A DNA stretch of 64,000 nt from Streptomyces sp. Ru71 (lineage in GTDB: Bacteria > Actinomycetota > Actinomycetes > Streptomycetales > Streptomycetaceae): positions 1-64,000 of the forward strand of contig NZ_PQSS01000017.1 of the NCBI RefSeq assembly GCF_002920535.1, given 5' to 3'. Position numbers and translations under genes: made by a program. Position 1 is the first letter of the stretch, and each line of letters opens with the position of its first letter. The notes beneath the pieces were generated by a model. That model had not been told where the DNA came from, searched no databases, and saw only the letters and a program-made list of their open reading frames with translations. Shown piece after piece: positions 36,769 to 56,619 of this stretch.

Positions 36769-37154
36769 GCGGGATCCGCCTCTCGTCACAGGGACCGTGA
36801 TGCCCAGACCATACCGACCAGTACGCAGGTCAGGGCAGGTCCAGGTCGCCGCCAAGTGAACTGAACGGGTCGTTCCGGGGTCTGCGGGACGCGGAAGCGG
36901 AATGTTTCCGGACGATTAACTGGCGGAGTGAATCGCGCCATTTGACCGGTTCTCTTGATCGAAAGCGCTTGGAATCGGCGTTGGAACGTTCGAATTACGT
37001 CACTTCACGCCACTGATTCAATACGCAATGTTACTGAAACCCATGGGGTCGATGTGTGTTTCGGCGGCGGACTCGGCAGAGTGGCGCACGCCGTCGCGGC
37101 CCCCACCGAGGGTCCGGCGGCACACCCCCGAATCGAAGCGGAAGGATGCACACA
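36769..37154. promoter_or_regulatory. Divergent control region with dyads before the SSI gene
   Basis: A 386-base gap, less GC-rich than the rest. It holds AAGCGCTT at 36963-36970 and the near-palindrome TTGGAACGTTCGAA at 36981-36994 (one mismatched pair). TTGACC at 36942-36947 resembles a -35 but has no good -10. The hydroxyacid oxidase promoter should lie near 36800-36840, where TATGGT occurs on the minus strand. No regulator can be named. Confidence 0.4.
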
Positions 37155-37577
37155 ATGCGGAACCCCGCGCGCTGGGCAGCGGCTCTGACCCTGACGGCCA
37201 CCGCCGTCTGCGGCACCCTGACCGGTGCCGCCCACGCCGCCCCGTCGTCGCTCTACGCGCCCTCGGCCCTCGTGCTGACCGTCGGTCACGGCGACAGCGC
37301 CGCCACCGCCTCGGCGGCCCGGGCGGTCACCCTCTCCTGCGCGCCGACGGCCACCGGCACCCACCCGGACCCGGCCTCGGCCTGCGCCGAACTGCGCCGT
37401 GCCGGCGGCGACCTCGACGCCCTGGGCACCGGCACCGAGCCGCTGTGCACCAAGCAGTACGACCCCGTCGTCGTCACCGTGGACGGCGTCTGGCAGGGCC
37501 GGCGCGTCAGCTACGAGAAGACCTTCGCCAACGAGTGCGTGAAGACCGCCTACGGGCCGACCGTCTTCGCGTTCTGA
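37155..37577 (+). CDS. Subtilisin inhibitor-like (SSI) secreted protease inhibitor
   Basis: 140 residues. A signal peptide ([20 protein letters not shown], then AHA) precedes a mature SSI domain that starts [20 protein letters not shown] and ends with [16 protein letters not shown]. Four mature cysteines match the two SSI disulfides. The reactive-site loop reads CTKQYDP against CPMVYDP in SSI, so P1 is Lys rather than Met, which predicts trypsin-type inhibition. The second ATG (37155) is used because AAGGA lies 8 bases before it. Secreted dimer acting on serine proteases. Strong terminators follow. Confidence 0.95.
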
Positions 37578-37616
37578 GGGACCGGGATCGCACGGACCCC
37601 GTGAAACGCCGCGCGA

Positions 37617-37641
37617 GGCTCGCAGGTGGGGAGTGCGAGCC
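37617..37641 (+). terminator. First hairpin after the SSI gene
   Basis: GGCTCGCA (37617-37624) pairs with TGCGAGCC (37634-37641), 9-base loop. Confidence 0.55.
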
Positions 37642-37669
37642 CCTCTTGCGGGGCACCGGGTGATCCCGC

Positions 37670-37715
37670 GCCGGGGGTCGGCAGGGCGGAGTGGGGCCGC
37701 CCGCCGACCCCCGGC
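37670..37715. terminator. Long hairpin between SSI and CDGSH genes
   Basis: Perfect 13-bp outer stem (37670-37682 with 37703-37715) continued by a 6-bp inner stem (37684-37689 with 37697-37702) after one bulged A; nearly 19 pairs in all. Serves both convergent transcripts. Confidence 0.8.
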
Positions 37716-37754
37716 ATCGTGTTTGCCGCCCTCCCTCGACGCAAGGGCGCCGGC

Positions 37755-37979
37755 CTAGGCGTCCCGGGAGGGCGGCTCCGGCCGGGCCGTCCTGCGGTGG
37801 CTGGTGTCGCACCACGGGTAGCGGCGGCTGCGGCGGCAGGTGCACAGGGCGACCCGGAAGCGGTCGGAGCGGACGGTCGTGCCGTCCTCCAGTTCCACCT
37901 CCACCGGGCCCTCCACCAGCAGCGGTCCGGGGCGCTGGACCTTGATCCTGCGCGGCGGGTCAGACGGGTCGTTCGGCAC
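37755..37979 (-). CDS. CDGSH-type iron-sulfur protein
   Basis: 74 residues, GTG start. The cluster motif reads CTCRRSRRYPWCDTSH, with three cysteines and one histidine that ligand a [2Fe-2S] cluster as in CDGSH proteins. Its start overlaps the end of the HemK2-like gene by 20 bases, so it is the last gene of the operon with the methyltransferase and the iron oxidase. It may transfer electrons or an iron-sulfur cluster to the neighbour (inference). Confidence 0.88.
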   Translation of the reverse strand: MPNDPSDPPRRIKVQRPGPLLVEGPVEVELEDGTTVRSDRFRVALCTCRRSRRYPWCDTSHRRTARPEPPSRDA

Positions 37980-38613
37980 GGACCACCACCAGCTCCTCGT
38001 TCGTGTCCTCGGCCGACAGCAGCCCCCGCTCCCGCAGCCAGCCCTGCCGCCGGCGCAGCACCGGTCCGAAGCCGATCCGGCTGCGCCGGATCACCGATGC
38101 CTTCAGCCCGGCCGCCCGCAGGCACGTCAGGGTCAGGTCGGGATCGCACAGCGCCGAGTGGACGACCAGCAGGACCCCTCCGGGACGCAGCAGGCCCGGC
38201 ACCTCCCGGCAGATCCGGTCCAGCACCAGCCGGCCGTCGCCTCCCGCGTCCCAGGCGCGTGCGGCGCCACGGGCCGCCCGGGGGCCGTCCGGGGCCGGCA
38301 CGTAGGGCGGATTGGCCACGATGAGGTCGAAGGTCTGTCCGCGCACCGGCTCGAAGAGGTTCCCGCGCCGGATGCGCAGCCGCACTCCGGACCGCCAGGC
38401 GTTCAGCCGCGCGCTCCACACCGCCCGCCGCGACACGTCGACGGCTGTCACCCGCATGCCGCGCCGCGCGGCCTGAAGGGCCAGCGCACCGCTGCCCGTT
38501 CCGACGTCCAGGACGGCCGCGCCCGGGGGCAGCGGCTCGTCGCACAGGGCCCCGGCCAGCAGCCGGGTGTCGTCCTGAGGGGCGTACACGCCCGGAAGCA
38601 CCAGAGGAGTCAC
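37960..38613 (-). CDS. HemK2/MTQ2-family protein methyltransferase-like protein
   Basis: 217 residues, GTG start. SAM-binding motif VLDVGTGSGALALQAARRG (about 35-53) and the catalytic NPPY in LIVANPPYVPAPDG mark an N5-glutamine or related methyltransferase of the HemK family. HemK2 relatives modify GGQ motifs of release factors, but in this operon with two iron proteins the target is uncertain. The C terminus is rich in Arg. Confidence 0.85.
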   Translation of the reverse strand: MTPLVLPGVYAPQDDTRLLAGALCDEPLPPGAAVLDVGTGSGALALQAARRGMRVTAVDVSRRAVWSARLNAWRSGVRLRIRRGNLFEPVRGQTFDLIVANPPYVPAPDGPRAARGAARAWDAGGDGRLVLDRICREVPGLLRPGGVLLVVHSALCDPDLTLTCLRAAGLKASVIRRSRIGFGPVLRRRQGWLRERGLLSAEDTNEELVVVRAERPV

Positions 38614-38634
38614 GGGCGCCGGGTTCCCCCTCGA

Positions 38635-39660
38635 TCAGGAAATATGAGGGACTTCTGTGGCCACCGGGGCGTCCAGCGGCGTCCGCAGGGACGAGGTGCC
38701 CGCGTGCCAGGCGTCCAGCAGACGCTCGGCGAGACGGCCCTCCAGATGTTCGGTCGCGTCGATGCCGAACACCACGTCGGGAGCGAGATGCGGCTCGTCG
38801 GCCAGCAGACCGCCGATCACCTCGTGCCGGACGACCTGCTCGTGCACCGCGTCCGCCTCCACATGCTCGTCGTAGAAGAACGCGGCGGCCGGACCGGCGC
38901 CCGCGCGGCGCATCGCCTCCGCGAGCCGGCGCGAGGCGGGGGAGGAGGTGATCTCCACCGCCGCGAAGTGGCCCACCAGGGCGCCGCGCAGCTCACGGTG
39001 CAGCCCGAACAGCGACATCATGTTCACGACCGCCAGGGCCTGCGCGCAGCCCGCGTCCAGGTAGCGGCCGTAGGCGGGGTCCAGGCCGAGGTCCGTCATC
39101 AGATCGGCGAACAGGCGGGCGTGCACGCGGTCGGCGCGGCCGCCGCCGAACTCGTCGAACTCCACGGCCGCCATGGCCGCCTTGGCCCGTCCCGTCAGCC
39201 GGGGCAGCACCCAGGCGTGCGGGTCGGCCTCCTTCAGGTGGTACAGGGAGCGGTGCGCCGCGTATTCGCGCAGCTGCCACAGCTCGCCCTTCTCGCACAG
39301 GTGGTGGCTGACGCCGGTGCCGTCGGCCGGCTCCACCAGGAGCTCGCCTACGGCGTCCTCGACACTGTCGTGCAGCGGCGTGTCCGCGCGCAGCGCGGCG
39401 AGGAAGCGGTGCTCCAGCGCGGCCCGGGCGCGCAGCAGGTCGGGATCCCACTCCCGGTCCGCGGGCACCCCGGCGAAACCCCGGTAGTGCAGCTCGTAGC
39501 AGAGGTACAGGGCGAGCTGGAGATCGTCACCGTACGGGTCCGCGCCGGCGACCGCCTCGGAGGCGGGCAGCGGCCCGGTGCCGAGCAGATGGTCCAGCAC
39601 GGCCCCCGACAGGGGGCCGCGCGCCGACGGCAGCCGAGGTCCTTCGAGATCGTGTGCCAT
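38635..39660 (-). CDS. Iron-containing redox enzyme family protein (haem-oxygenase-like fold)
   Basis: 341 residues. Helical, with Glu/His ligand candidates in SLYHLKEADPHAW, AAVEFDEFGGGRADRVHARL and AAFFYDEHVEADAVHEQVVRHE, typical of non-haem diiron haem-oxygenase-like proteins. Such enzymes oxidise small substrates using O2. ATG at 39660 chosen; a longer frame adds only a Pro/Gly tail. First in an operon with HemK2 and CDGSH genes, spaced by 21 bases and an overlap. Confidence 0.82.
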   Translation of the reverse strand: MAHDLEGPRLPSARGPLSGAVLDHLLGTGPLPASEAVAGADPYGDDLQLALYLCYELHYRGFAGVPADREWDPDLLRARAALEHRFLAALRADTPLHDSVEDAVGELLVEPADGTGVSHHLCEKGELWQLREYAAHRSLYHLKEADPHAWVLPRLTGRAKAAMAAVEFDEFGGGRADRVHARLFADLMTDLGLDPAYGRYLDAGCAQALAVVNMMSLFGLHRELRGALVGHFAAVEITSSPASRRLAEAMRRAGAGPAAAFFYDEHVEADAVHEQVVRHEVIGGLLADEPHLAPDVVFGIDATEHLEGRLAERLLDAWHAGTSSLRTPLDAPVATEVPHIS

Positions 39661-39761
39661 GCCCCCTGGGGTACCCGTGCCTGGTCGAGGCACGCGTGGC
39701 CGCCCGGGCGGGCGCGGCGCGGAGCAGGCTTGCGCGGAGGGGCCGTGTCGCCGGTGCCTGC

Positions 39762-41042: not shown

Positions 41043-43859
41043 CTACGCCAGCTGCCGCCGCACCAGCTCGTGCAACCGCCCGCCCGTGTCGGCGAGCAGC
41101 TGCGCGGGCGGCCCCTGCTGGGCGACCTTGCCGTTCTCCATCACGATGACCCGGTCGGCGTCCAGCACCGTCGACAGGCGGTGCGCGATGACGATCCGGG
41201 TGGCGTTCAGTGCCTTCGTGGACTGGATGACCGTGCGCTGCGTCTCGTTGTCCAGGGCGCTGGTCGCCTCGTCGAAGAACAGGATGCGCGGGCGCCGGAT
41301 CAGCGCCTGCGCGATCATCAGCCGCTGCCGCTGCCCGCCCGAGATCGCCCCGTTGCCGGCGACGATCGTGTGCAGGCCCATCGGCATCCGCTTGATGTCC
41401 TCGGCCAGCCCCGCCATCTCGGCCGCCGCCATCGCCTCCTCGGGCGTGTACGGCTCGGTGCCGCAGATGACGTCCAGGATCGACCCGGTGAACGGCTGCG
41501 CGTGCTGCAGCACCACCCCGCACTGCCGCCGCACCGCCGACTGGTCGAGCGCGGCCAGGTCCTGACCGTCGTACAGGACACTGCCGGAGACGGGCGGGTC
41601 GAAGCCGATGAGCAGGCGCAACAGCGTCGACTTGCCGCAGCCGCTCGGGCCGACGACCGCCACGAACTCGCCCGGCCGCACCTCGAAGGAGACGTCGTCC
41701 AGGACGAGCGGGCCGTCGTCGGAGTAGCGGAAGGACAGCCTGCGCGCCTCGATCGCCCCGGTCAGCGGACCCGGCCGGGTGCTCGCCCCGCGCACCTCCG
41801 GCGCGGCGTCCAGCACCGGCTTGATCTCCTCGAACAGCGGCAGCGCGGCCACCGCCGAGACGAACGCGCCGGTCAGCTGGGTGACCGAGGTCAGCAGCAT
41901 CGTCACCGACGTGTTGAAGGTGAGGAAGTCGGCCGCCGACAGCGCGCCGCGCGCCGGTCCGGCCAGCAGCATGAACATCAGCAGCGAGCACACCGGCAGA
42001 TACACCGCGCCCAGCACCGAGTTCAGGTTCTTGATCCGGCCCAGCCGCTGCTGCAGCTCACGGCTGTGCGCGAACTGAGACGCCCACGCCGCGTAGGCGT
42101 AGTTCTCGGCGGCGGCCACTCGCAGCTTGGGCAGCCCCCGCAGGGTCTGGAACGCCTGGTTGTTCAGCTTGTTGGTGAGCACGACCAGCTTCCGCTGCCA
42201 GCGCACCTGCCACAGCCCCAGCGCCGTGAACACACCCGCGATGACCACCAGCATCCCGATCGCGGCCATCGCCATCGGCACGCTGTACCACAGCAGCAGC
42301 CCCAGGTTCATCGCACCGACCGTGACCGCCTGCGCCACCGACGGGCCGACACCGGCCAGCAGCCGGCGGATCGCGCTGATGCCCATCGCCGCGCTCGCCA
42401 GCTCACCCGTGGAGCGCTGCGCGAAGAACTTCGTCGGCAGCCGCAGCAGCCGGTCCCACACGGCCGGTTGGAGCGTGGCCTCGATCCGCCCCTCCAGGCG
42501 CAGGATGGTGAGGTTCTGCAGCAGCATGAACGCCGCCGCCACCACACTGGAGACCATCACCGCCAGGCACACCTGCACGATCAGCCCGGACTGCGCCCGG
42601 GGCACGTACTCGCCGAGCACCCGGCCCGTCGCCACCGGCACCAGCGCGCCGATCGCCACCGTCACCAGCCCGGCCAGCAGCAGCCACGTCAGATCCGAGC
42701 CGGTGCCGCGCAGCGTGAACCGCAGCAGCCCCAGCGGCCCGAGCCCCCGCTCGGGCAGCGGCCGGTAGAACATCACCGCACGCGGCTCGAACTCCCCGGC
42801 GTTGGCCTTCTCCACCGGCGTCTCCCGGCCGGTCGCCGGGTGCACGGCGACATAGCCGCCACGCCGCCACAGCAGCGCCACCGGCGCCCCGGACAGCGCC
42901 CGGTGACCGACCAGCGGTCCCGCGTTCTCCCGCCACCAGCGCCCGTCGAGGCGTACCGCCCGGGTGCGCAGCCGCGAGGCGAGCGCGACCCGCTCGACCG
43001 GGTCGAGGCGGTCGTCACCCGTGCCGGACTGCGGCGGCGCGGTCAGCGAGATCCCGGCGGCCTCGGCGACCAGCTTGCAGGCCGCGTAGGTGGCGTCCGC
43101 GTCGGCGGCCGTGGTCCGCTGGGCCGAGGTGCGCCCGATGGAGGCCAGCAGCGTCCGGTCGGCCTGGGCGCGCACCGCCTCACCGGCCTTGATGCCGGCG
43201 GCCGTCCGCGTCTCGTGGGTGCGCTCCAGCTGCTCGATCCAGCGGTCCAGGGTGGCCAGCAGCCGGTACTGCTGATCGACCATCCCCTGCCACACCGCCG
43301 GGTCCATCAGCAGATCGGCGGCCGCCTCCTGGCCGTACAGCGAGCCGTACTGGACGCTGCCGGGCGGCACCTGCATCCAGAAGACATCGTCGTCCGTGAC
43401 CTCCGCCGGCCGCTCGTCGGCCATCGGCGCCTGGAACAGGATCGACAGGCCGCGGCCGACGCCGAGCGCGAGCGCGTACTCCAGCGGGCTCGTCGTCGGC
43501 GGCACGTACTGCGGGTTGCCGTACTCGTCGTAACTCCACGTCTGGGTCTGCGCGGGCTGGTACAGCTCGCGCAGCGCGATGCGGTGCACCACGCAGTCGC
43601 GCACCGGGCGGGCGACCAGCGTGTGCTGCGGCCCGGCGACCGGGCCGAGCAGCAGCGAGCCCGCCTCCAGCCGGCCCAGGTGGTGCCAGTGGCCCTGCTG
43701 GGCGGCGTCCACCGCGAACAGGTCCAGCGCCCCGGCCGCCACCAGCCACAGCACCTGCGGACCCTCCAGGTCGATACGGCCCAGGCCCGCGCAGTGCAGC
43801 GGCGTGCCCAGCTGCCCGAACGCGCCCAGCACCAGGTCGCCTTCGTGTACGGCCGTCAT
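41043..43859 (-). CDS. NHLP-type bacteriocin export ABC transporter, permease/ATPase subunit without peptidase
   Basis: 938 residues. N-terminal 300 residues form a cupin/cyclic-nucleotide-binding-like and linker region, followed by six membrane helices (about 395-690) and a nucleotide-binding domain: Walker A VVGPSGCGKSTLL, signature ISGGQRQRLMIAQA, Walker B ILFFDEATSALD. This is the second, non-protease exporter of NHLP peptide systems. Only one base separates it from the C39 exporter gene. It should work at the plasma membrane with the HlyD-like protein and the peptidase exporter. Confidence 0.92.
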   Translation of the reverse strand: MTAVHEGDLVLGAFGQLGTPLHCAGLGRIDLEGPQVLWLVAAGALDLFAVDAAQQGHWHHLGRLEAGSLLLGPVAGPQHTLVARPVRDCVVHRIALRELYQPAQTQTWSYDEYGNPQYVPPTTSPLEYALALGVGRGLSILFQAPMADERPAEVTDDDVFWMQVPPGSVQYGSLYGQEAAADLLMDPAVWQGMVDQQYRLLATLDRWIEQLERTHETRTAAGIKAGEAVRAQADRTLLASIGRTSAQRTTAADADATYAACKLVAEAAGISLTAPPQSGTGDDRLDPVERVALASRLRTRAVRLDGRWWRENAGPLVGHRALSGAPVALLWRRGGYVAVHPATGRETPVEKANAGEFEPRAVMFYRPLPERGLGPLGLLRFTLRGTGSDLTWLLLAGLVTVAIGALVPVATGRVLGEYVPRAQSGLIVQVCLAVMVSSVVAAAFMLLQNLTILRLEGRIEATLQPAVWDRLLRLPTKFFAQRSTGELASAAMGISAIRRLLAGVGPSVAQAVTVGAMNLGLLLWYSVPMAMAAIGMLVVIAGVFTALGLWQVRWQRKLVVLTNKLNNQAFQTLRGLPKLRVAAAENYAYAAWASQFAHSRELQQRLGRIKNLNSVLGAVYLPVCSLLMFMLLAGPARGALSAADFLTFNTSVTMLLTSVTQLTGAFVSAVAALPLFEEIKPVLDAAPEVRGASTRPGPLTGAIEARRLSFRYSDDGPLVLDDVSFEVRPGEFVAVVGPSGCGKSTLLRLLIGFDPPVSGSVLYDGQDLAALDQSAVRRQCGVVLQHAQPFTGSILDVICGTEPYTPEEAMAAAEMAGLAEDIKRMPMGLHTIVAGNGAISGGQRQRLMIAQALIRRPRILFFDEATSALDNETQRTVIQSTKALNATRIVIAHRLSTVLDADRVIVMENGKVAQQGPPAQLLADTGGRLHELVRRQLA

Positions 43860-43860
43860 C

Positions 43861-46086
43861 TCACCGCTCCCTGACCAGCGCCGCGTACGCGCCGCCGCGC
43901 GCCACCAGCTCCTCGTGCCGCCCGCGCTCCACGATCTCGCCGTGCTGGAGCACGACGATCTCGTCGCTGTCGCGCACGGTGCTCAGCCGGTGCGCGATCA
44001 CCACGCAGGCGCAGCCCCGGCGGCGCAGGTTGTCCATCACGACCAGTTCCGTCTCGGCGTCCAGGGCGCTGGTCACCTCGTCCAGGACGAGGATGCTCGG
44101 CCGGCGCACCAGCGCCCGCGCGATCTCCAGGCGCTGGCGCTGCCCGCCGGAGAAGTTGCGGCCGTCCTGCTCGACGCGGCTGTGGATGCCGCCGGGCCGG
44201 CGCATCACCACGTCGTACAGCGCCGCGTCGCGCAGCGCCTCCAGCACCGCGTCGTCGGGGATCGACGGGTCCCACAGCGCCACGTTGTCCCGGACGGTGC
44301 CCTCGAAGAGGAACACGTCCTGGTCGACGAAGGACACCGAGGCGGCGAGCGCGCCGCGCGGGATGTCCTCCAGGCGCTGCCCGTCGATGCGGATCACGCC
44401 CTCCCACGGTGTGTACAGGCCCGCGATCAGCCGGGACACCGTCGACTTGCCGCTGCCCGAGCCGCCGACCAGGGCCACCTGCTGCCCCGGTCCGACGGTC
44501 AGGTCGAAGCCGGTCAGCAGCGGCTTGTCCAGCGGGCTGTAGCCGAAGGTGATGTTCTGCAGCTCGACATGGCCGTGCAGCCGGCGGGTGGAGTCCGCGC
44601 CGCCCTTGCGGCCGTAGAGCGGGTCCGCCCGGAAGTTCTCGACGTCCTTGAGCCGGGCCACGTCGGCGGCGAAGTCCTGGATGCGGCCCGCGACGCCGTT
44701 GAGCCGGGTCAGCGGAGCGGTGAACCGGGCCACCAGCGCCTGGAAGGCCACCAGCAGACCGACCGAGATGTGTCCCTCGATCGCCCGCATGCCGCCGATC
44801 CACAGGATCAGGGCGCTGTTCAGCGTGGCGAGCGTCGGCGCGACCACGCCCAGCCAGGCGCTCGGCACGCCGAGCCGCTGCTGCTCCTCCAGGGTGGTGG
44901 CGTGCTGCCCGGCCCACTTGCGGAAGTAGCCGTCCTCGCCGCCGGTCGCCTTCATCGTCTCGATCAGCTGCAGGCCGGTGTAGGCGGTGTTGGTCAGCCG
45001 CGCGTTGTCCGCGCGCAGCTTCGCCGTGCGCGTCGCGCGCAGCCGGACGACCACCCGCATGGCGACGACGTTCAGCAGGGCCACGCCGATGCCGACGAAC
45101 GTCAGCTGCGGGTCGTAGGTGTACAGCAGGAGCGCGTACAGCACGACGACGACGGCGTCCACGCCGGCCGCGGCGAGGTCGCGGGCCAGCGTCTCGGCGA
45201 CCTGGTCGTTGGACTGCAGCCGCTGCACCAGGTCGGCCGGGCTGCGCTGGGAGAAGAAGGTCACCGGCAGCCGCAGCAGATGGCGCAGGAAGCGGGCGCT
45301 GGAGAGGGTGGAGGAGATGATCCGGCCGTGGTGCAGGTTCGCCTGCTGCAGCCAGGTCAGCGCGACCGTCAGCGCGACGCACGCCGCCATGGACGTGAAC
45401 AGCACGCCCAGCAGCGAGGTCTGGCCGCCGATCAGGAACATGTCGATGTAGGTGCGGCTCAGCGCGGGCACGGCGGCGCCGACCAGCACCAGCAGCAGGC
45501 TCGCCAGCACGGCGGCCGGCAGGGTGCCCGCGGTGCCCTTCAGCCGGGCGGGCATCGCCCCCCACACGCCGGGCCGGCGACCGCCCCGGGTGAAGTTCTC
45601 GCCCGGCTCCATCACCAGCACCACACCGGTGAAGCTGCCGTCGAAGTCCTCCATCGGCACGAACCGGCGGCCCTTGGCGGGGTCGTTGACGAACACCCCG
45701 CGGCGGCCGAAGCGGCGGCCCATGCCGTCGTAGACGACGTAGTGGTTGAACTCCCAGAACAGGATCGCGGGCGCCTTGACCTCGGCCAGCGCGGCCAGGT
45801 CCATCTGCATGCCCTTGGCCGTCAGACCGTAACTGCGCGCCGCCTTCAGCAGGTTGGAGGCGCGTGAGCCGTCGCGGGAGACACCGCAGGCGATGCGCAG
45901 CTCCTCCAGCGGGACGTGCCGGCCGTAGTGGCCGAGCACCATCGCCAGGGAGGCGGCACCGCACTCCACGGCCTCCATCTGCAGCACCGTCGGGGTACGC
46001 ACGGTCTTCGCGCGCGGCTTGGGCACGGAGCGCTTGGGCGGGGCGGCGCGGCGGCGGCCCCGGGTCTCGGGGGCGGCGGTGGTCAC
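43861..46086 (-). CDS. NHLP-type peptidase/permease/ATPase exporter with C39 domain
   Basis: 741 residues from the GTG at 46086, which overlaps the HlyD-like stop (GTGA). N-terminal C39 peptidase: Cys42 in MEAVECGAASLAMVLGHYG, His115 in FWEFNHYVVYDG, Asp135 in VNDPAKG. Then six membrane helices (about 180-450) and an ATPase: LVGGSGSGKSTVS, FSGGQRQRLEIARA, ILVLDEVTSALD. It should cut the double-glycine leader of the precursor at 46983 and export the core. A TTG at 46098 is an alternative start. Confidence 0.93.
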   Translation of the reverse strand: MTTAAPETRGRRRAAPPKRSVPKPRAKTVRTPTVLQMEAVECGAASLAMVLGHYGRHVPLEELRIACGVSRDGSRASNLLKAARSYGLTAKGMQMDLAALAEVKAPAILFWEFNHYVVYDGMGRRFGRRGVFVNDPAKGRRFVPMEDFDGSFTGVVLVMEPGENFTRGGRRPGVWGAMPARLKGTAGTLPAAVLASLLLVLVGAAVPALSRTYIDMFLIGGQTSLLGVLFTSMAACVALTVALTWLQQANLHHGRIISSTLSSARFLRHLLRLPVTFFSQRSPADLVQRLQSNDQVAETLARDLAAAGVDAVVVVLYALLLYTYDPQLTFVGIGVALLNVVAMRVVVRLRATRTAKLRADNARLTNTAYTGLQLIETMKATGGEDGYFRKWAGQHATTLEEQQRLGVPSAWLGVVAPTLATLNSALILWIGGMRAIEGHISVGLLVAFQALVARFTAPLTRLNGVAGRIQDFAADVARLKDVENFRADPLYGRKGGADSTRRLHGHVELQNITFGYSPLDKPLLTGFDLTVGPGQQVALVGGSGSGKSTVSRLIAGLYTPWEGVIRIDGQRLEDIPRGALAASVSFVDQDVFLFEGTVRDNVALWDPSIPDDAVLEALRDAALYDVVMRRPGGIHSRVEQDGRNFSGGQRQRLEIARALVRRPSILVLDEVTSALDAETELVVMDNLRRRGCACVVIAHRLSTVRDSDEIVVLQHGEIVERGRHEELVARGGAYAALVRER

Positions 46087-46895
46087 GGCAGCAGCCAATC
46101 GAGGGGACGCTGGTCGGCCAGCCGGATCGAGCCCGTGGCCAGGGTCATGGAGGTGAGGGCGTACGGCGGCCCGTCCGCGGACGACCAGCGGTAGCCGCTC
46201 TTCGTGCGCGAGGACGTGTCCAGCTCCACCGTGACGGCCACCGGGCGGCCCTTCCTGGTGAACTGCTCACCGAGCTGGCTGTCCCCGAGGAACGCGCCGA
46301 TCGCCTGCGCCGACTGGGCGGTGCGGTCCACGGACTTCACATGGCCGCGCAGCACGCCGTACTGCTGGGCCGGCACCGTCTGCACGGTCAGGTCCACGGC
46401 GGCGTGCGCGGGGATGGTCGAGGCGTTCTCGGCCGGCACGTACACCGTCGCGTACAGCGGGTCGTCGGCGTGCGCGACCTTCTCGACGGCCGCCACGTTC
46501 GCACCGGTGGAGATGATCTGCCCGATGGTCGCGGCCATCGCCGTGATCCGGCCCGCCGCGACGGTACGCACGGTCGTCTCGCCCTCGGCCGTACGGACCT
46601 TGAGCACCGGGGCGTTCGCGGGCAGCCGGGTGCCCTCCTGGGCGAGGACCGCCGTCACCTGCCCGGCGACGGGGCTCTGCAGGACGTAACTGCCCTCCCC
46701 GTGGGTGAGGACGGCGGGCGCGCTGACCGTGGAGGCCACCGAGCCGGTCACCGCCCACACCGAGGCGGCCACGATCGCGGCCACGGTCACCGACAGCACG
46801 AGCCAGCCCTGCGGGCGGGCGAGACGCACCGGGAGGTCGAGCTCCTCCGGCGACTGGAGCTTGGTGAGAGCCTGTTGGCGGAACTGCACGGTCAC
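46083..46895 (-). CDS. HlyD-like secretion protein of the NHLP system
   Basis: 270 residues, GTG start. One N-terminal membrane helix (GWLVLSVTVAAIVAASVWAV, about 30-50), then a biotinyl-lipoyl-like/barrel-sandwich domain (VLQSPVAGQVTAVLAQEGTR, TVAAGRITAMAATIGQIIST) and a beta-barrel region. It is the membrane-fusion-type adapter of the exporter. It lies downstream of the precursor gene with an 87-base gap holding a hairpin, and its stop overlaps the C39 exporter start. Confidence 0.88.
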   Translation of the reverse strand: MTVQFRQQALTKLQSPEELDLPVRLARPQGWLVLSVTVAAIVAASVWAVTGSVASTVSAPAVLTHGEGSYVLQSPVAGQVTAVLAQEGTRLPANAPVLKVRTAEGETTVRTVAAGRITAMAATIGQIISTGANVAAVEKVAHADDPLYATVYVPAENASTIPAHAAVDLTVQTVPAQQYGVLRGHVKSVDRTAQSAQAIGAFLGDSQLGEQFTRKGRPVAVTVELDTSSRTKSGYRWSSADGPPYALTSMTLATGSIRLADQRPLDWLLP

Positions 46896-46928
46896 CTACA
46901 TCGGGAACGGCACCGACGGCACACCCGT

Positions 46929-46962
46929 GGGTCCCGGAGCCGGGGGGCGGCTTCCGGGACCC
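46929..46962 (-). terminator. Hairpin between precursor and exporter genes, likely attenuator
   Basis: GGGTCCCGGA (46929-46938) pairs with TCCGGGACCC (46953-46962), continued by three more pairs on the inside. Located after the precursor stop, it could let most transcripts end there, giving more peptide than transporter. Confidence 0.5.
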
Positions 46963-46982
46963 GGGGGCACGAAAGGGTGCGA

Positions 46983-47198
46983 TCAGAGACCGGCGACCAG
47001 GCCGGTGAGCGGGGCGGTGTTCAGGCCGGTGACGCCCTCGACCGTGCCGACGACCGTGTTCACCACGCCGGAGACCGGGGCGATGCCGTTCAGGGCACCG
47101 GTGGCGGCGTTCAGGGTGTTGACGGACAGACCGCCCGAGACGTTGTCGAGGTCGGCGTCGGAGATCTCAGCGGTCTGGACCTGGGGGGTGGAGTTCAT
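46983..47198 (-). CDS. Double-glycine leader precursor peptide without cysteines
   Basis: 71 residues from the ATG at 47198. The first 23 form a leader rich in acidic residues (TAEISDADLDNVSGG) that ends in a Gly-Gly cleavage site, with the family feature of spaced Leu/Val and Asp before it. The 48-residue core has no Cys, no aromatic and no basic residue, a single Glu, eight Gly and several Thr/Ser/Asn; it looks hydrophobic and near neutral. Adjacent C39 exporter is the obvious processing enzyme. No modifying enzyme lies next to it; unmodified or acted on by a distant enzyme. Peptides of this sequence type are sometimes labelled lantibiotic, but without Cys no lanthionine can form. Confidence 0.82.
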   Translation of the reverse strand: MNSTPQVQTAEISDADLDNVSGGLSVNTLNAATGALNGIAPVSGVVNTVVGTVEGVTGLNTAPLTGLVAGL

Positions 47199-47594
47199 GA
47201 TGGAACTTCCCTTCATATGGATATTTCACAAGGGGGGCACCGGGGGTCACGCGGGATCCCGCGGTGCGATGGATGAAAGCACGCGGCGACCGCGCGCTTC
47301 CAATCAACGACCCCTCCCACCTGGGCACTTGCCCCCCTCGGGAAGCCAAAGGTGCAGGAGTGCGCACGCCGTGTCGGCGACTTCTTCACACCCCGCACCG
47401 CATCGGTGCACACCCCCGCTTGCCGTGTCCGGACCGAATCGGGCACTTGTCGCCAAATGCGGTCCGGGCGCCGCGCGATTGTGCAGATCCGCGGCGCCCG
47501 GTGACCTGGTTGAGCATTCGATGTGCAGATTCCCTGAAGCAGAAATTCCGTTCCGTGTCCGCAACCGACCGTCGCCGGACCGATACCGATCGTG
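47199..47594 (-). promoter_or_regulatory. Control region of the NHLP cassette
   Basis: A 396-base gap that should hold the minus-strand promoter of the precursor. It contains the perfect palindrome CGCGGGATCCCGCG (47250-47263), 52 bases before the start, and the AT-rich GAAATATCCATATG just upstream of the ribosome site. No convincing -35/-10 pair. It also contains the terminator of the upstream thioesterase. Confidence 0.4.
47464..47501 (-). terminator. Hairpin terminator downstream of the thioesterase
   Basis: Perfect 12-bp stem (47464-47475 with 47490-47501), 14-base loop, about 95 bases after the thioesterase stop; insulates the peptide cassette. Confidence 0.6.
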
Positions 47595-48195: not shown

Positions 48196-49548
48196 TTGAG
48201 TCACAAGCGAATCCCGAAGCGCAAGGCCGCGATGGCGGCGGGTGGCGTCGCGGCGCTCGGCGCGGCGGCGATCCTGCTGCCGCAGGCCAACGCCTCGCAG
48301 GACGGCGCTTCGGACACCGCGGCCCCGAGGACGCTGAAGTCGGCCGACGCCCAGGGCCTGGCCGCACAACTCGCCGGCCTGCTCGGCGACTCCTTCGCCG
48401 GCTCCTACTACGACGCGGACAAGCGCCAGCTCGTCGTGAACGTCGTGCCCGGCGACAACAACAACGTCGTCGTCCAGGCCAAGAAGGCGGGCGCGGCCGT
48501 CCGCGAGGTCGCCAACAGCCTGGCGGAGCTGAAGTCGGGCGCGCGCACGCTCAGGGCGCAGGCCTCCATACCCGGCACCGCCTGGGCGATCGACCCGCGC
48601 ACGAACAAGCTCCTGGTCACCGCCGACCGCACGGTGGCCGGCGCGCAGTGGGACCGGCTCCAGTCGACGGTACGGAGTCTCGGCTCCGGCATGGCCACGC
48701 TGAAGAAGTCCGCCGGCACCTTCAAGACCTTCGTCTCGGGCGGCGACGCCATCTTCGGCGGCGGGGCGCGCTGCTCGCTCGGCTTCAACGTCACCGCATC
48801 CGACGGCTCGCCCGCCTTCCTGACGGCCGGTCACTGCGGGGTCGCGGCCAAGCAGTGGTCCGACTCCCAGAACGGGCAGCCGATCGCCACCGTCGACCAG
48901 GCCGTCTTCCCCGGCAACGGCGACTTCTCCCTCGTGAAGTACGACGACCCGAACACGCAGGCGCCCAGCGAGGTGAACGCCGGCGGGCAGACCGTGCAGA
49001 TCAGCCAGGCGGCGGAGGCGACCGTCGGCCAGCAGGTGTTCCGGATGGGCAGCACCACGGGTCTGCACGACGGTCAGGTCCTCGGGCTCGACGCCACGGT
49101 CAACTACCCCGAGGGCACGGTCACCGGGCTCATCCAGACCGACGTGTGCGCCGAACCCGGCGACAGCGGGGGGTCGCTCTTCACCCAGGACGGGCTCGCG
49201 GTGGGCCTCACCTCCGGCGGCAGCGGCGATTGCACCTCCGGCGGCGAGACGTTCTTCCAGCCGGTCACGACGGCCCTGCAGGCCACGGGGGCGACGCTGG
49301 GCGCGGGCGGCGCGGGTGCCGGGGACGCGGGCCAGGGCGCGGGGGACCAGCAGGCGGGCGGTGACCAGCAGGCCGGTGGTGACCAGCAGGCCGGTGGTGA
49401 CCAGTCCGGCAGCGGCGCCGGTGACGGCAGCGGTGCGGGCGACGGAACCGGCGCCGGCGACGGCAGTGGCGCGGGCGCCGGTGACGGTTCCGCCGCACAG
49501 CAGGGCGCCGGAGCGGAGGGCGGTTCCTCGCTCACGGGGACGAACTGA
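48196..49548 (+). CDS. Streptogrisin-type S1 family secreted serine protease with Gly-rich tail
   Basis: 450 residues, TTG start with AGGAGG upstream. A long signal peptide (RIPKRKAAMAAGGVAALGAA) is followed by an alpha-lytic-protease-type prodomain (about 60-175) and the mature protease, which begins near FVSGGDAIFGGGARCSLGFN. Triad: His in LTAGHCG, Asp in GNGDFSLVKYD, Ser in EPGDSGGSLF; four cysteines form two disulfides. The C-terminal 80 residues are a Gly/Ala/Asp tail with three QQAGGD repeats and many GSGAGDG-like units, absent from short streptogrisins. Autoprocessing outside the cell is expected. Confidence 0.93.
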   Translation: MSHKRIPKRKAAMAAGGVAALGAAAILLPQANASQDGASDTAAPRTLKSADAQGLAAQLAGLLGDSFAGSYYDADKRQLVVNVVPGDNNNVVVQAKKAGAAVREVANSLAELKSGARTLRAQASIPGTAWAIDPRTNKLLVTADRTVAGAQWDRLQSTVRSLGSGMATLKKSAGTFKTFVSGGDAIFGGGARCSLGFNVTASDGSPAFLTAGHCGVAAKQWSDSQNGQPIATVDQAVFPGNGDFSLVKYDDPNTQAPSEVNAGGQTVQISQAAEATVGQQVFRMGSTTGLHDGQVLGLDATVNYPEGTVTGLIQTDVCAEPGDSGGSLFTQDGLAVGLTSGGSGDCTSGGETFFQPVTTALQATGATLGAGGAGAGDAGQGAGDQQAGGDQQAGGDQQAGGDQSGSGAGDGSGAGDGTGAGDGSGAGAGDGSAAQQGAGAEGGSSLTGTN

Positions 49549-51797: not shown

Positions 51798-52257
51798 GCC
51801 GACCACCTCCTCGCCCGAGTGGGCCGCACAACCGGCGTTCCGGAAAATGCCCGGGGCGCACCACGGCCCCGGCAAAGCCCCAGGGATCAAATCTGCCTCG
51901 CCGGGCCCGCCCCCGCACGGCGAACGCCGGGGGACCGCCCTGGCGGGCGTCACGCCGGTGGGGGTCCCGGCGACGGGCGGCGTCCTCGCCGGGCCCGGCG
52001 GTGGGCGGGGCGTGCGGGCTGGTTCCGGCGGAGGGTGGGGCGTGCGGGCTGGTTCCGGCCGGGCGGGCGGCCACGCATACCCTTCCGCCCCGTGATCATG
52101 CCCCGGCAGTCGAAGCGTGGGTGGTGCACGAGCCAGGCGTGTGCGCCCCCGCGCACCGTGATGGCCGGTTCTCCGCCACCGGCGGACGTCACGAACGCCA
52201 ACAATGGGGCACGCGTTCACCACCACGTCTCGGGCGCAACGAGCTGAAGGGGCAGCA
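51798..52257. promoter_or_regulatory. Divergent spacer between the phosphatase and the RamR-like gene
   Basis: 460 bases, no credible gene. It must contain promoters for both neighbours but none is clear. A 30-bp tandem pair lies at 51997-52056. The RamR-like gene has AAGGGG 6 bases upstream of its GTG. Confidence 0.4.
51997..52056. repeat. Two tandem 30-bp units
   Basis: Units 51997-52026 and 52027-52056 differ at two of 30 bases; a degenerate third begins at 52057. The sequence is G-rich (GGGGCGTGCGGGCTGG). Confidence 0.7.
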
Positions 52258-52866
52258 GTGATCCGGGTACTTCTGGTCCATGACGCGTCTTTGGTGCGGT
52301 CGGTCCTCGCGGACTGGCTGCGCCGCGAGGACGATCTGCGCGTCTACGACACTCCGTGGCGGGCCGCGCCGGGCCGGGTGCGCGCGGTGCGGCCCGATGT
52401 GTGCGCGGCGGACCTGGAGTGCTCCGACACCCCCGGTGTCCCGCCGCTCACGGAGCTGTGCGGGCGGGGCGCGGAGCGGACGGCACCCCGGCTGCTCGTG
52501 CTGGCCGACGCGCACCGGCCGGGGCTGCTCAGAAGAGCCCGCGAGGCGGGGGCGCTGGGCTACGTCGGCAAGGAGGGCCCGCCCGAGCGCCTGGTCGAGG
52601 GCATCCGGCGGGTCGCCGAGGGGGAACGTTTCGTCGACGACACGCTCGGCTTCGGCTTCCTGGAGGCCGCCGAGATGCCGCTGACCCGGCGCGAGCTGAG
52701 CGTGTTATCCCTCGCCGCCGGCGGCGCCTCCGTCGCGGAGATCGCCGGGAGCCTGCACCTGTCCCACGGGACGGTGCGCAACTACATGGCGGCCATCACC
52801 CGCAAGACCGGCGCCCGTAACCGCATCGACGCCATCCGCATCTCCCAGGGCCAGGGCTGGCTGTGA
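52258..52866 (+). CDS. ramR: RamR/AmfR-like response regulator of the lanthipeptide locus
   Basis: 202 residues, the length of RamR. A receiver-like N terminus (VIRVLLVHDASLVRSVLADW, with Asp52 in VCAADLEC and Lys in GYVGKEG) has one rather than two acidic residues after strand 1, fitting an orphan regulator. The C terminus is a LuxR helix-turn-helix (LTRRELSVLSLAAGG, VAEIAGSLHLSHGTVRNYM). RamR activates the ramCSAB operon in S. coelicolor. No histidine kinase is adjacent. Its 3' end is overlapped by the convergent ABC gene. Confidence 0.88.
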   Translation: MIRVLLVHDASLVRSVLADWLRREDDLRVYDTPWRAAPGRVRAVRPDVCAADLECSDTPGVPPLTELCGRGAERTAPRLLVLADAHRPGLLRRAREAGALGYVGKEGPPERLVEGIRRVAEGERFVDDTLGFGFLEAAEMPLTRRELSVLSLAAGGASVAEIAGSLHLSHGTVRNYMAAITRKTGARNRIDAIRISQGQGWL

Positions 52867-54666
52867 GCCGGCGGCCCAGTGACCGGCCAGCTCGCGGTAC
52901 AGCGGCGAGCCGGCCAGCAGCTCGGCGTGCGTGCCGTACGCGGTGCGCGGGCCGTCCAGCACCAGTACCCGGTCGGCCCGCCGCGCCGAGCTGATGCGGT
53001 GGGCGACGACGACCAGCGTCCCGTCCGCGCGCCCGGCGAAGGCCCGCTCCGCGCGCTCCTCGGCCTGCGGGTCCAGATGGCAGGTCGCCTCGTCCAGCAG
53101 GACGAGCGGCGCGTACGACAGATGGGCCCGGGCCAGCGCGATCAGCTGCCGCTCGCCCGCCGACAGCGCCGCCGGGTCCACCGGCGCCTGCGGGCCGCCC
53201 AGCCGCTCCAGCAGCTCAGTGAGCCCGACCGCGTCGGCCGCCGCGAGCAGCTCGGCCTCGCGCACCCGGTCCGGCCGCAGCAGGCCGAGGTTCTCGGCGA
53301 GGGTGCCGCTGTGCACGTACGCCTCCTGCGGGACCAGCACGCGCAGGGCGGCGGCCCGCGCCGAGGGCACCGGCGTGCCGTACACGCGGATGCCGCCGCG
53401 CACGGGTTTGAGCAGGCCCGCGACGAGCGCGGTGAGCGTGGACTTGCCGATGCCGCTGGGTCCGACGACGACCAGATGGCCGCCCGGCGGCAGCGCGAGA
53501 TCGAGTCCGTCGACCACGGGGGCGGCGCCGGGGCCGTAGGAGAAGGTGACGCCGTCCAGCTGGAGCGCGGCCTCGGCCGCAGGTGGGGTCGGGCCGGGGA
53601 GGGGCGCCGGGACGGGCCTGCCCGAGCCGCGGGGGTGCGGCACGGGCGCCGCGGAGTCACCGGGCGCCGACACGGCGCTGTCCGAGGGCCGGGTTTGGGG
53701 CACGGGCGCCCCGGACCCACCCGCCTGCTCCCGCGGGGCCAGCCGGCGCAGGACCACCGTCAGACGGGCGCCGCTCGTGCCGAGGCCGTGGACCAGGGTG
53801 CGCAGCGCGGGCAGCAGGGACTGGGTGACGTAGGCGAGGGCGCCGACCAGGGCGCCGGGGGTGACGCCCCGGGCGAGCAGCCAGGGCGCCGCGGCCGGCA
53901 GCAGCACGGCCGGCAGATGGCCGCCGACGGCGAGGGCCGCCGTGCGCAGCACGGAGAAGCGGGCCAGGGAGCGTGCCGCCCGCAGCTCGGCCTCGACGCC
54001 GGCCCCGACGTCCGCCGCGATCCGCTCCTCCGCCCCGGCCGCCGTGATGTCCCGCAGCCCGGGGCAGACGGCGCCCAGGCGCGCGGCGAGCGCCTCGTCG
54101 GCGGCGAGGAACGCCTCCTGCCGCCGGGCCAGCGGCCGCAGTGTCACCGCGAACAGGGCCACGCCGGCGGCCAGCGGCGGCCCCACGACGAGCAGCAGCG
54201 GCGGGGCCAGGGACAGCAGTCCGGCGACGGCGCCGACAGCGGTGAACACGAACGACCGCGCCACCATCACCAGCCCGGCGAAGGTGTCCCGCGCGATCTC
54301 CACCTGCTGGGTCAGCCCGGACAGCGCCCCGTCGTCGGCCTCGCGCACCCCGCGCCGCACCACCCGGGTCACCAGCAGGTCCCGCAGCGGTTCCACGAGG
54401 GCGGCGACGGCGCCGTACACCCGCCCGGTGCCCCACGCGCCGGCCAGGACACCCACGCCGGCCACCGCGAGCCAGGCCAGTCCGGCCCCGGAGCGCCCGG
54501 CCAGGAACCCGTCGTCCAGGGCGCGGGCGAGTGCGTAGCCGAGCAGGAAGGTCTGCCCGGTCTCCAGCACCGACCAGCCGGCCAGCCGCAGCAGCACCCG
54601 CCACCGTCCGCGCAGGAAGCGCAGCCCACGCGCGCAGGTCCCGGCCCCCGGGCGACCGGGGCTCAT
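52705..54666 (-). CDS. ramB: RamB-like ABC transporter (permease plus ATPase)
   Basis: 653 residues as read. Six membrane helices (about 15-310), a long Pro/Ala/Gly-rich linker (about 335-385), then an ATPase with VVGPSGIGKSTLT, LSAGERQLIALARA and LVLLDEATCHLD, an intact Q-loop (VLVPQEAY). ATG overlaps the stop of RamA (ATGA). The family end is expected near SPLYRELAGHW; the frame instead continues about 56 residues over the 3' end of ramR on the opposite strand. This extension could be real, or could mark a lost stop or a sequence error. Confidence 0.85.
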   Translation of the reverse strand: MSPGRPGAGTCARGLRFLRGRWRVLLRLAGWSVLETGQTFLLGYALARALDDGFLAGRSGAGLAWLAVAGVGVLAGAWGTGRVYGAVAALVEPLRDLLVTRVVRRGVREADDGALSGLTQQVEIARDTFAGLVMVARSFVFTAVGAVAGLLSLAPPLLLVVGPPLAAGVALFAVTLRPLARRQEAFLAADEALAARLGAVCPGLRDITAAGAEERIAADVGAGVEAELRAARSLARFSVLRTAALAVGGHLPAVLLPAAAPWLLARGVTPGALVGALAYVTQSLLPALRTLVHGLGTSGARLTVVLRRLAPREQAGGSGAPVPQTRPSDSAVSAPGDSAAPVPHPRGSGRPVPAPLPGPTPPAAEAALQLDGVTFSYGPGAAPVVDGLDLALPPGGHLVVVGPSGIGKSTLTALVAGLLKPVRGGIRVYGTPVPSARAAALRVLVPQEAYVHSGTLAENLGLLRPDRVREAELLAAADAVGLTELLERLGGPQAPVDPAALSAGERQLIALARAHLSYAPLVLLDEATCHLDPQAEERAERAFAGRADGTLVVVAHRISSARRADRVLVLDGPRTAYGTHAELLAGSPLYRELAGHWAAGSQPALALGDADGVDAVTGAGLAGDGRHVVAHRPVGQVQAPGDLRDGGAAGGEG

Positions 54667-56399
54667 CGCCGTACCCCGTCCGTGTCCGCGTCCCCGAACA
54701 CCGCCCGGTAGCCGGGATCCCGCCACAGCGTGGCGTGCGGTCCGACCGCGCGGACGCGTCCGCCGTCCAGCCAGGCCACCGCGTCCGCGCGGGCGGCCGT
54801 GGCGGCGCGGTGGGCGACGACCAGGCGGGTGCCGTGCGCGCCGGGGGCGGTCAGGGCCTGGGTGATGCGGTGCTCGGTGACCGTGTCGAGGCTGGACAGC
54901 GCGTCGTCCAGGACGAGCAGCCGCCCGCCCCGGGCGAAGGCCCGCGCCAGACCGAGACGCTGGGACTCGCCGCCGGAGCGCGGGGCGTCGGCGCAGAGGG
55001 TGGCGTACCCGGCGGGCAGCCGGCGTACGAAGTCGTCGGCGTGCGCGGTGCGGGCCGCTTCCCGGACGCGGGCCGGGGACGGGTGCGGCAGGCCCAGGGC
55101 GAGTGCGTCCCGCACGGTGCCGCCGAGCAGGACCGGGCGGTCGAAGGCGCAGGCCACCGCCCCGCGCAGCTCCTCGCGGGACAGCTCGTGCAGCGGTACT
55201 CCGTCCAGCAGGACCTCCCCGGCGTCCGGGTCGGCCAGTCGCGCGGCCAGCGCGGCCAGCAGCGACTTGCCCGAACCGGAGCGGCCGACGACGGCCAGCG
55301 TGGTGCCGCCGGGCACGATCAGATCGACCCCGTCGAGCACCGTGCGCTCGCCGCGTCGCGCCCGCACCCCGCGCAGCTCCAGGCGTCCGGGTCCGCCCTC
55401 GGGCAGGCGGCGCCGACCGTGCGCCGGTGCGGGCACGGCGTGCAGCTCACCCAGCCGTCCCGCCGCCGCGCGGGCCCGCGCCAGGGCGGTGAGCTGCCCG
55501 AGGAGCGTGCCGACGCCGGTGGCGAGCACCGCGTACCGGGACGCCGCGAGCAGGTCCCCGGCCGTGAGCCGGTGCCGCGCCAGCAGCAGTCCGGCGACCG
55601 CCACCACCGCGAGTTGCAGCAGCGGTGCGACGGCCACCGCTTGCGCGGCGGCCCGGCCCTGCACCTGCCACATCCGGTGGCCGGCGCGCGACAGTTCGGG
55701 CAGCGGCCGCAGGATGCGGGCCGTCTCCCGCTCCTGCAGTCCGGCCGCACGGATGGTGCGCCGGCCGGCCACGGCCTCGGCCAGCGCCGCCGCCATCCGC
55801 CCCTGCACCCGCTGGTAGTCGGCGACGCAGGCGGAGGTGTCCCGGGCCAGGGCCCGCAGCAACAGCGCGAGCGGCGGCGCACCGGCGAGCAGGACGACCG
55901 CCAGCCAGGGGTCGATCAGCGCCAGCGCCACCACACCGCCGGCCGGCACCGCGATCGCGGCCGGCAGCCCGGCCCGCGCGGCGGGCGCCGTGCCGGCCGT
56001 CGCGGCGTTGCCCACCAGCCGGGCGACCAGCTCACCCGCTGCGAAGCGGTCCTGGGCACGGGGGCCGAGGGCGAGCACATGGCCCGTCGTGCGGCGGCGC
56101 AGCCAGGCGGTGGTACGGGCGTCGACCGTGCCGTGCAGCACCGTCGAGGCCGCGTCCAGCACGGCCGTCAGCAGCACCAGTCCCGCACACAGCAGCACCC
56201 ACCGCGTGGCGGACTCACGCGCCAGCAGCAGGTCCAAGGTGCGGCCCAGCGCGGCCGGCAGCAGCAGTCCCGCGCCGGCCGCGCCGACGCCGGCCAGGGA
56301 CAGGGCCGTGCGGCGTGTCGCGCTGTGCCGGGCGGCCGAGCGCAGCAGCGCCCGGCTCTCGCGGGTCACCGTGTCGTCTCGCTGCCGCGGACCTGCCAT
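54663..56399 (-). CDS. ramA: RamA-like ABC transporter (permease plus ATPase)
   Basis: 578 residues, starting MAGPRQRDD with GGGGAG upstream. Six membrane helices (about 30-300) and an ATPase: VVGRSGSGKSLLAALA, RSGGESQRLGLARA, LLVLDDALSSLD. The Walker B catalytic Glu is Asp here and the Q-loop Gln is missing (CAFDRP), so this half is likely catalytically weak. It should pair with RamB as a heterodimer exporting the lanthipeptide. Follows the precursor after 103 bases with a hairpin. Confidence 0.88.
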   Translation of the reverse strand: MAGPRQRDDTVTRESRALLRSAARHSATRRTALSLAGVGAAGAGLLLPAALGRTLDLLLARESATRWVLLCAGLVLLTAVLDAASTVLHGTVDARTTAWLRRRTTGHVLALGPRAQDRFAAGELVARLVGNAATAGTAPAARAGLPAAIAVPAGGVVALALIDPWLAVVLLAGAPPLALLLRALARDTSACVADYQRVQGRMAAALAEAVAGRRTIRAAGLQERETARILRPLPELSRAGHRMWQVQGRAAAQAVAVAPLLQLAVVAVAGLLLARHRLTAGDLLAASRYAVLATGVGTLLGQLTALARARAAAGRLGELHAVPAPAHGRRRLPEGGPGRLELRGVRARRGERTVLDGVDLIVPGGTTLAVVGRSGSGKSLLAALAARLADPDAGEVLLDGVPLHELSREELRGAVACAFDRPVLLGGTVRDALALGLPHPSPARVREAARTAHADDFVRRLPAGYATLCADAPRSGGESQRLGLARAFARGGRLLVLDDALSSLDTVTEHRITQALTAPGAHGTRLVVAHRAATAARADAVAWLDGGRVRAVGPHATLWRDPGYRAVFGDADTDGVRR

Positions 56400-56435
56400 G
56401 CTGCCTGCTCCCCGGGAACGCGTTCGAAGAAGAGT

Positions 56436-56478
56436 GAGGGCCCCGGGCGGCCCCTCCTCGTGGGAGGACGGCCGGCCC
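56436..56478 (-). terminator. Dyad between precursor and transporter genes
   Basis: Overlapping GC-rich inverted repeats (56436-56442 with 56449-56456, and 56453-56457 with 56463-56467 inside a larger imperfect stem). Likely attenuates read-through from the precursor into ramA. Confidence 0.4.
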
Positions 56479-56502
56479 GGAGCCGTGGTCACGCGGCGGG
56501 CG

Positions 56503-56619
56503 TCACAGACAGAGCAGGACGCTCGCCGCGCTGATGCAGGACAGCAGGCTCACCGTGCTGGCGCCGCCGCCGTCGGTGTGCTCCTCGGACTCCAGGGTCT
56601 GCAGGTCGAGCAGGGCCAT
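56503..56619 (-). CDS. ramS: SapB/AmfS-type class III lanthipeptide precursor
   Basis: 38 residues, too short for routine gene calling. ATG at 56619 with AAAGGA upstream. The leader starts MALLDLQTLESEE; LLDLQ is the conserved box recognised by LanKC enzymes. The core carries STVSLLSC and SAASVLLC: both fit S-xx-S-xxx-C exactly, the pattern for a labionin or a lanthionine ring, as in AmfS/SapB. The mature peptide should be amphiphilic, secreted, and act as a surfactant that helps aerial hyphae form (family knowledge). Confidence 0.93.
   Translation of the reverse strand: MALLDLQTLESEEHTDGGGASTVSLLSCISAASVLLCL

Follow-up and report, generated by a model that had tools for sequence, protein, structure and literature searches.

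The closest described counterpart of the locus considered here is the gene set SCO0753-SCO0757 of Streptomyces coelicolor, which was studied by transcriptomics (PMC6629963). In the sections of that paper on these genes, SCO0753 is described as a 77-aa hydrophobic peptide without Cys, SCO0754 as a HlyD homolog, SCO0755 and SCO0756 as ABC transporter components and SCO0757 as an exopolyphosphatase. According to the same sections, SCO0753 was the most induced gene under the activating SCO5282-D125G allele of a two-component kinase; the SCO5282-D125G strain grew dispersed, and the null mutant hardly expressed the SCO0753 set at all. That SCO0753 is exported and affects morphology is presented there as a suggestion only. 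In other papers the S. coelicolor cluster is listed as a bacteriocin.

Several other systems are similar in part. The NHLM systems (Haft et al. 2010, PMC2887384) have a three-gene exporter of the same make-up (TIGR03794/TIGR03796/TIGR03797, with the HlyD-like gene here slightly below the TIGR03794 cut-off), and the mean Gly-Gly positions of their NHLP and Nif11 leaders are near 83 and 70. The cyanobacterial bacteriocin clusters (Wang et al. 2011, PMC3140520, group V) combine a C39-ABC protein, a peptidase-free ABC protein, HlyD and small Gly-Gly peptides; on average they have more than three precursors per cluster, with other leader types. Class II bacteriocins and Gly-Gly pheromones with PCAT/ComA-type exporters share the short Gly-Gly leader, the C39 protease and the absence of a modifying enzyme. 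SapB, a lanthipeptide made by RamC from RamS, is likewise a small exported Streptomyces peptide, and the surface role is SapB's.

The cassette analyzed here differs from each of these. Unlike the NHLM systems, it has no linked cyclodehydratase or LanM, its core is Cys-free and its leader family is only 20-24 aa long. In comparison with the cyanobacterial clusters, it has one linked precursor and scattered ones under a common promoter. It differs from the class II bacteriocins and pheromones in having no linked immunity or receptor gene, an acidic core and a separate peptidase-free ABC gene, and from SapB in the lack of Cys in the core and in that no dependence on RamC was seen.

The cassette lies in a 64,000-nucleotide stretch of the Streptomyces sp. 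Ru71 genome (the window). The first-pass annotation of the window called it the best candidate there for an undescribed peptide system; in fact it matches the SCO0753-SCO0756 cassette of PMC6629963. The order peptide, HlyD, ABC, ABC, exopolyphosphatase (Ppx) is the same, as judged by the gene descriptions given there, and the window peptide, when read as a 77-aa ORF, is alike by description in being Cys-free and hydrophobic. Further on, the SSI-type inhibitor and the methyltransferase of the window fit SCO0762 and SCO0760 as described. The account of SCO0753-SCO0756, in the sections concerned, does not include unlinked precursors, a promoter element or a hairpin, and we know of no biological difference between the two cassettes. 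New here are the co-occurrence of leader and exporter, the scattered precursors, the common promoter element and the hairpin between the precursor and the exporter genes. With a confidence slightly better than even, we read the cassette as secretion machinery devoted to a family of small peptides that stay unmodified, most likely with a surface or morphogenetic role.

We also observed that the stretch 37056-39693, where genes of an SSI protease inhibitor, a CDGSH iron protein, a methyltransferase and an iron-containing redox enzyme stand in a row, resembles SCO0759-SCO0762, reported as bldA-affected (PMC2000904).

Organization of the cassette

The features of the cassette, in the direction of transcription, were as follows.

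47271..47305, minus strand: bipartite promoter-like element GATTGG-N16-CGTGCTTTCATCC; the sole site with 0 mismatches in the 8.2-Mb genome
47206..47214, minus strand: ribosome-binding site GAAGGGAAG serving the precursor gene; kept throughout the upstream alignment and also present before unlinked precursors
47198-46983, minus strand: precursor gene, 71 aa; at the place given in the first-pass annotation
47130..47198, minus strand: 23-aa Gly-Gly leader MNSTPQVQTAEISDADLDNVSGG; from the leader profile and the precursor alignment
46986..47129, minus strand: 48-aa core peptide; from translation
46929..46962, minus strand: GC-rich, attenuator-like hairpin in the gap between precursor and exporter genes; found in 123/130 cassettes
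46083..46895, minus strand: HlyD-like adaptor of the NHLM exporter; TIGR03794 by far the best model (E 4.7e-43, 147.7 bits, cut-off 156.2), PF13437 over cut-off
43861..46086, minus strand: C39 peptidase/permease/ATPase exporter; TIGR03796 1033.4 bits, cut-off 853.3
45598..45996, minus strand: C39 peptidase domain with conserved catalytic Cys/His/Asp positions; PF03412, aligned to 6mpz
41043..43859, minus strand: second ABC exporter without peptidase domain; TIGR03797 891.2 bits, cut-off 709.4

All four genes are on the minus strand within 47198-41043, as annotated before, and the scores of both ABC genes support an exporter of the NHLM type (called NHLP-type in the first-pass annotation). The genes had also been said to overlap. 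This is true of HlyD and C39-ABC, whose stop and start codons share GTGA (start GTG at 46086), while the two ABC genes are 1 bp apart.

For the C39 domain, the closest solved protease domain is that of PCAT, 6mpz, to which it aligned with E 3e-41 and with conservation of the motifs ECGAA, FNH and NDPAKG; the entire exporter aligned end to end with PCAT1 (4ry2). It is the one exporter over the TIGR03796 cut-off in the Ru71 genome. Two plasmid records with the HlyD gene were found, both from Streptomyces.

Because the conserved GAAGGGAAG is placed 8 nt before the ATG at 47198, and because the upstream ATG overlaps this site and is incompletely conserved in the upstream alignment, the 71-aa start is better supported than the 77-aa start, which is given in the ORF list and agrees with the published length of SCO0753. 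Judged from the alignments, the precursor is a real gene, because it was present directly upstream of the HlyD gene in 80/80 named Streptomyces loci and is conserved at the codon level.

Conservation of the cassette in other genomes

We compared 131 cassettes, 81 of them near and 50 divergent (HlyD ~54-69% identical). A peptide with a matching leader was present upstream of HlyD in 130 of the 131; the last one had a shorter start. Even where the window peptide gave no BLAST match, the divergent cassettes had a Gly-Gly peptide of like composition. When neighboring genes were clustered over the 131 loci, only the precursor, HlyD and the two ABC genes were common to the near and divergent cassettes (HlyD was located in all 131 loci by tblastn, while a simple gene picker recognized it in 61). 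The first-pass annotation held that its reading would fall if a conserved modifying enzyme were always found with the precursor elsewhere; no such enzyme was found in the 131 cassettes.

Several neighbors were considered as linked partners and rejected. The S1 protease accompanied 79/81 near but 1/50 divergent cassettes, the exopolyphosphatase 46/81 near and 0/50 divergent ones, and the iron-containing redox enzyme and the methyltransferase 36/81 and 31/81 near ones, respectively, with 0/50 divergent for both. In the window, an alpha-lytic-type S1 protease gene (48196-49548) adjoins the cassette, probably as a matter of local synteny.

The ram/amf locus and modifying enzymes

The flanks of the cassette had been said to contain no cyclase or dehydratase. 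This was wrong, as the whole of a ram/amf locus, for the class III lanthipeptide SapB, is situated at 52204-59302, starting ~5 kb upstream of the cassette. Besides two ABC genes, it contains the following.

59302-56684: RamC class III lanthionine synthetase with kinase and LANC domains; PF25816 258 bits
56619-56503: RamS-like precursor MALLDLQTLESEEHTDGGGASTVSLLSCISAASVLLCL; PF19402 55.7 bits
52204-52866: LuxR-type regulator of the ram/amf locus

This locus has to be weighed in connection with the idea that the core is a RiPP modified by an enzyme encoded elsewhere, either by Ser/Thr dehydration (class III synthetase, e.g. RamC) or by proteusin-like epimerisation. The end of RamC is 9.5 kb from the cassette precursor, and ram ABC genes were found near 32/81 close cassettes. 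The composition of the core (V, G, T, A, N) recalls polytheonamide-type cores, which we counted in favor of this idea. It was also reported for NHLM systems that precursors may be far from the exporter and from their enzymes (PMC2887384). On the other hand, RamC was present in 100/146 exporter-positive compared to 41/53 exporter-negative genomes (Fisher p 0.29), i.e. it was missing in 46 of the exporter-positive genomes and not enriched with the exporter. The cassette leader is unlike RamS, there was no conserved neighbor at either linked or unlinked precursors, and a search for the PoyD-type epimerase at E 1e-5, run without a positive control, matched 0/199 genomes. RamC and PoyD were the modifying families profiled genome-wide. 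We regard modification by a distant enzyme as improbable, and it is last in our order of belief for the rival explanations, after the bacteriocin and the pheromone.

RamC belongs to SapB-type biosynthesis. By the counts of 100/146 and 41/53, it is no partner of the peptide export cassette. Dependence of the cassette peptide on RamC was rejected, as the occurrence of RamC does not track the exporter. The first-pass annotation had left two options, an unmodified peptide or a distant enzyme; the absence of a linked enzyme and the distribution of RamC favor the first option, and the second is less supported.

Leader and core peptide

The precursor had been described as a 23-residue Gly-Gly leader followed by a 48-residue core without Cys, aromatic or basic residues, and translation gave just that. 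The core, LSVNTLNAATGALNGIAPVSGVVNTVVGTVEGVTGLNTAPLTGLVAGL, has zero C, F, W, Y, K, R and H. It is hydrophobic and acidic, with the GxxxG steps GTVEG and GLVAG; for the unmodified core we computed an average mass of 4474.07, a monoisotopic mass of 4471.45 Da and a predicted pI of 4.05. Over 130 precursors, the cores were 42-62 aa long and consisted of 21% V, 18% G, 14% T, 12.5% L and 11% A, with Lys or Arg in eight of the cores and F/W/Y in five.

In the leader, T9, E11, L17, D18, G22 and G23 were invariant in the profile of 29 sequences, and D14 was likewise invariant in the 80-row precursor alignment. With its short length, the Gly-Gly at its end and the Leu and acidic positions that are conserved in the alignment, it is a class II Gly-Gly leader; the TIGR01847 score of the window peptide (12.9 bits) was slightly below the cut-off of 15.7. 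The leader is not of the NHLP or Nif11 type, given its 23 aa and the lack of a match to TIGR03793 or TIGR03798.

Peptides of this kind presumably bear the database name 'type A2 lantipeptide'. The same name is used for an unspecified Streptomyces peptide in PMC13047742. A lanthipeptide combines core Cys and Ser/Thr with a cognate synthetase; here, Cys was found in 0/130 cores and RamC was not associated. The cassette is listed as a bacteriocin or lantipeptide though it is without the Cys that a lanthipeptide requires.

The hydrophobic periodicity of the core fits a helix (100-110 degrees, p ~0.02-0.04 compared to shuffles) better than a strand, and the core is probably helical. The reading as a functional amyloid (FapA, NF058556) was rejected, with 21.8 bits against a cut-off of 100 and with the helical periodicity. 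Among solved structures the peptide had no meaningful sequence match, and its structure model, of low confidence (mean pLDDT 62), gave no fold match. The dN/dS values, rough owing to strong codon bias, were ~0.54 for the core, 0.38 for its C-terminal half and 0.37 for the leader.

These properties bear on the first of the rivals, an unmodified class II-type bacteriocin whose core kills or inhibits competing actinomycetes. The length of the Gly-Gly leader, the C39 exporter and the hydrophobic core with GxxxG steps would agree with it, as would the listing of the S. coelicolor cluster and the fact that some members weakly matched bacteriocin models; 21/80 relatives weakly matched NF038167 (CTB family bacteriocin), which the window peptide did not match. 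Still, an acidic core without Lys or Arg does not resemble most membrane-active bacteriocins; over much of the genus the core is conserved rather than hypervariable (dN/dS 0.54), and no immunity-protein candidate was conserved with the cassette among the neighbors in the 131 cassettes. We consider the bacteriocin unlikely.

Co-occurrence of leader and exporter, and unlinked precursors

A leader profile of 24 positions was run on 199 Streptomyces genomes and matched 145 of them, 143 of which had the HlyD gene. The HlyD gene itself was found in 146/199 genomes, in three as a distant or fragmentary copy. The leader was therefore present in 143/146 exporter-positive compared to 2/53 exporter-negative genomes, where the sampled genomes are related and the counts are not independent trials. 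The two leader-positive, HlyD-negative exceptions were a 79%-complete genome and a match at E 0.046; the three HlyD-positive genomes without the leader were one case of a contig edge and two of a distant HlyD. In wider samples, the leader was found in 9/17 Streptomycetaceae genera, and in Streptomyces only among 114 genera sampled across the class. Roughly three of every four sampled Streptomyces genomes have the cassette, in a genus that is mined for natural products more than any other.

By hand count, ~66 of the 145 leader-positive genomes had at least two leader matches at E 0.05. The extra precursors were mostly unlinked and had other core types, e.g. NPHASLVAGP...SVSASL and AGAASVEAPLVGG...GSAATLSV. 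We found no conserved neighbors at the unlinked precursors. Their cores were nearly all Cys-free, the exceptions being one in Ru71 and one other. Ru71 has three precursors, the one in the window and two on contig C48 (L006:10123-10299 and L006:10744-10956), which have the same leader as the window precursor. One of the C48 cores has two Cys (AHLCAHLC), which is rare in the family.

Promoter element and hairpin

The element GATTGG-N15/16-CGTGCTTNNATCC was found upstream of both linked and unlinked precursors. A score of at least 13/16 was reached at 81/81 near linked, 45/49 divergent linked and 27/31 unlinked precursors, compared to 1/150 shuffled sequences and 3/400 random windows, which were taken from the same loci, so that true sites may be among them. 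In the Ru71 genome, two sites had at most two mismatches, namely that of the window precursor (0) and that of one unlinked precursor (1 mismatch). Genus-wide (199 genomes), the exact element occurred at 81 sites, and its reversed control at 0. Each of the 81 exact sites was followed, 69-141 bp further on and on its own strand, by a leader-bearing precursor, and five of these precursors were unlinked. The element was itself derived from sequences before precursors, and many of its linked copies share descent; the independent part of this evidence is the exclusivity of the element and its unlinked copies.

The spacing hardly varies, which suggests either a paired operator or the -35/-10 boxes for an alternative sigma factor. 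A sigma-70 scan found no promoter, and a literature search on the promoter motif or the leader sequence found nothing. With the leader profile and the element, an isolated gene becomes a defined target set, and all precursors of a genome can be listed. The promoter is specific enough that pull-down or transcription data should lead to its regulator.

Such specific control is also a point for the second rival, a peptide pheromone, in which the cores would be signals for a two-component system, and this system would in turn act on the shared promoter. This explanation would account for the strong control that a single two-component system exerts in S. coelicolor, as described in the sections of PMC6629963 on SCO0753, and for the conservation of the C-terminal half of the core (dN/dS 0.38); 7/80 members weakly matched the Gly-Gly pheromone VP1 model. 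However, no receptor or kinase was linked to the cassette among the neighbors in the 131 cassettes, the extracellular loop of SCO5282 is given in the same sections as four residues only, and at 42-62 aa the cores would make long signals. We hold the pheromone, too, to be rather unlikely, next after the bacteriocin, and continue to prefer a role at the hyphal surface.

A strong GC-rich hairpin followed the precursor stop in 123/130 cassettes, compared to 2/130 shuffled controls, and its sequence changes between clades keep the pairing. Rfam had no match at the hairpin. In the S. coelicolor data of PMC6629963, as far as given for these genes, the peptide gene was induced by log2 6.3 and the exporter genes by 4.25-4.4. 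The higher induction of the peptide gene fits partial read-through at the hairpin, which it does not prove.

Proposed route of export

In the preferred reading, a family-specific promoter would drive the linked precursor and, in many genomes, further unlinked precursors. The hairpin after the linked precursor would let less transcript reach the exporter genes, i.e. act by attenuation. The common 20-24-aa Gly-Gly leader would be recognized and cut by the C39 domain of the exporter, and the C39-ABC/ABC pair with the HlyD-like adaptor would release the Cys-free, acidic, hydrophobic core, presumably with no enzymatic modification step before release. The unlinked precursors may well leave the cell through the same exporter. 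Outside the cell, the products could be morphogenetic or structural peptides at the hyphal surface, with signaling as the nearest alternative. We infer this role from the S. coelicolor expression data, the hydrophobicity and the conservation.

More tentatively, and with clearly less confidence, one may propose that genus-wide in Streptomycetaceae a single NHLM-type exporter serves the linked core and several unlinked core types, that all are transcribed from one promoter class with a regulator or sigma factor of its own, and that the peptides, all unmodified, jointly build or tune the hyphal surface.

Variant loci

A few loci differ from the common arrangement. For example, one locus has a tandem pair of leader-bearing precursors before one exporter (L187:7582-7788 and an ORF ~600 bp upstream). 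At two others (L189 and L190, ~8000), the HlyD genes are distant relatives, 36-38% identical, and are preceded by the apparent end of a SagB-type dehydrogenase; these two loci are probably azole-peptide clusters.
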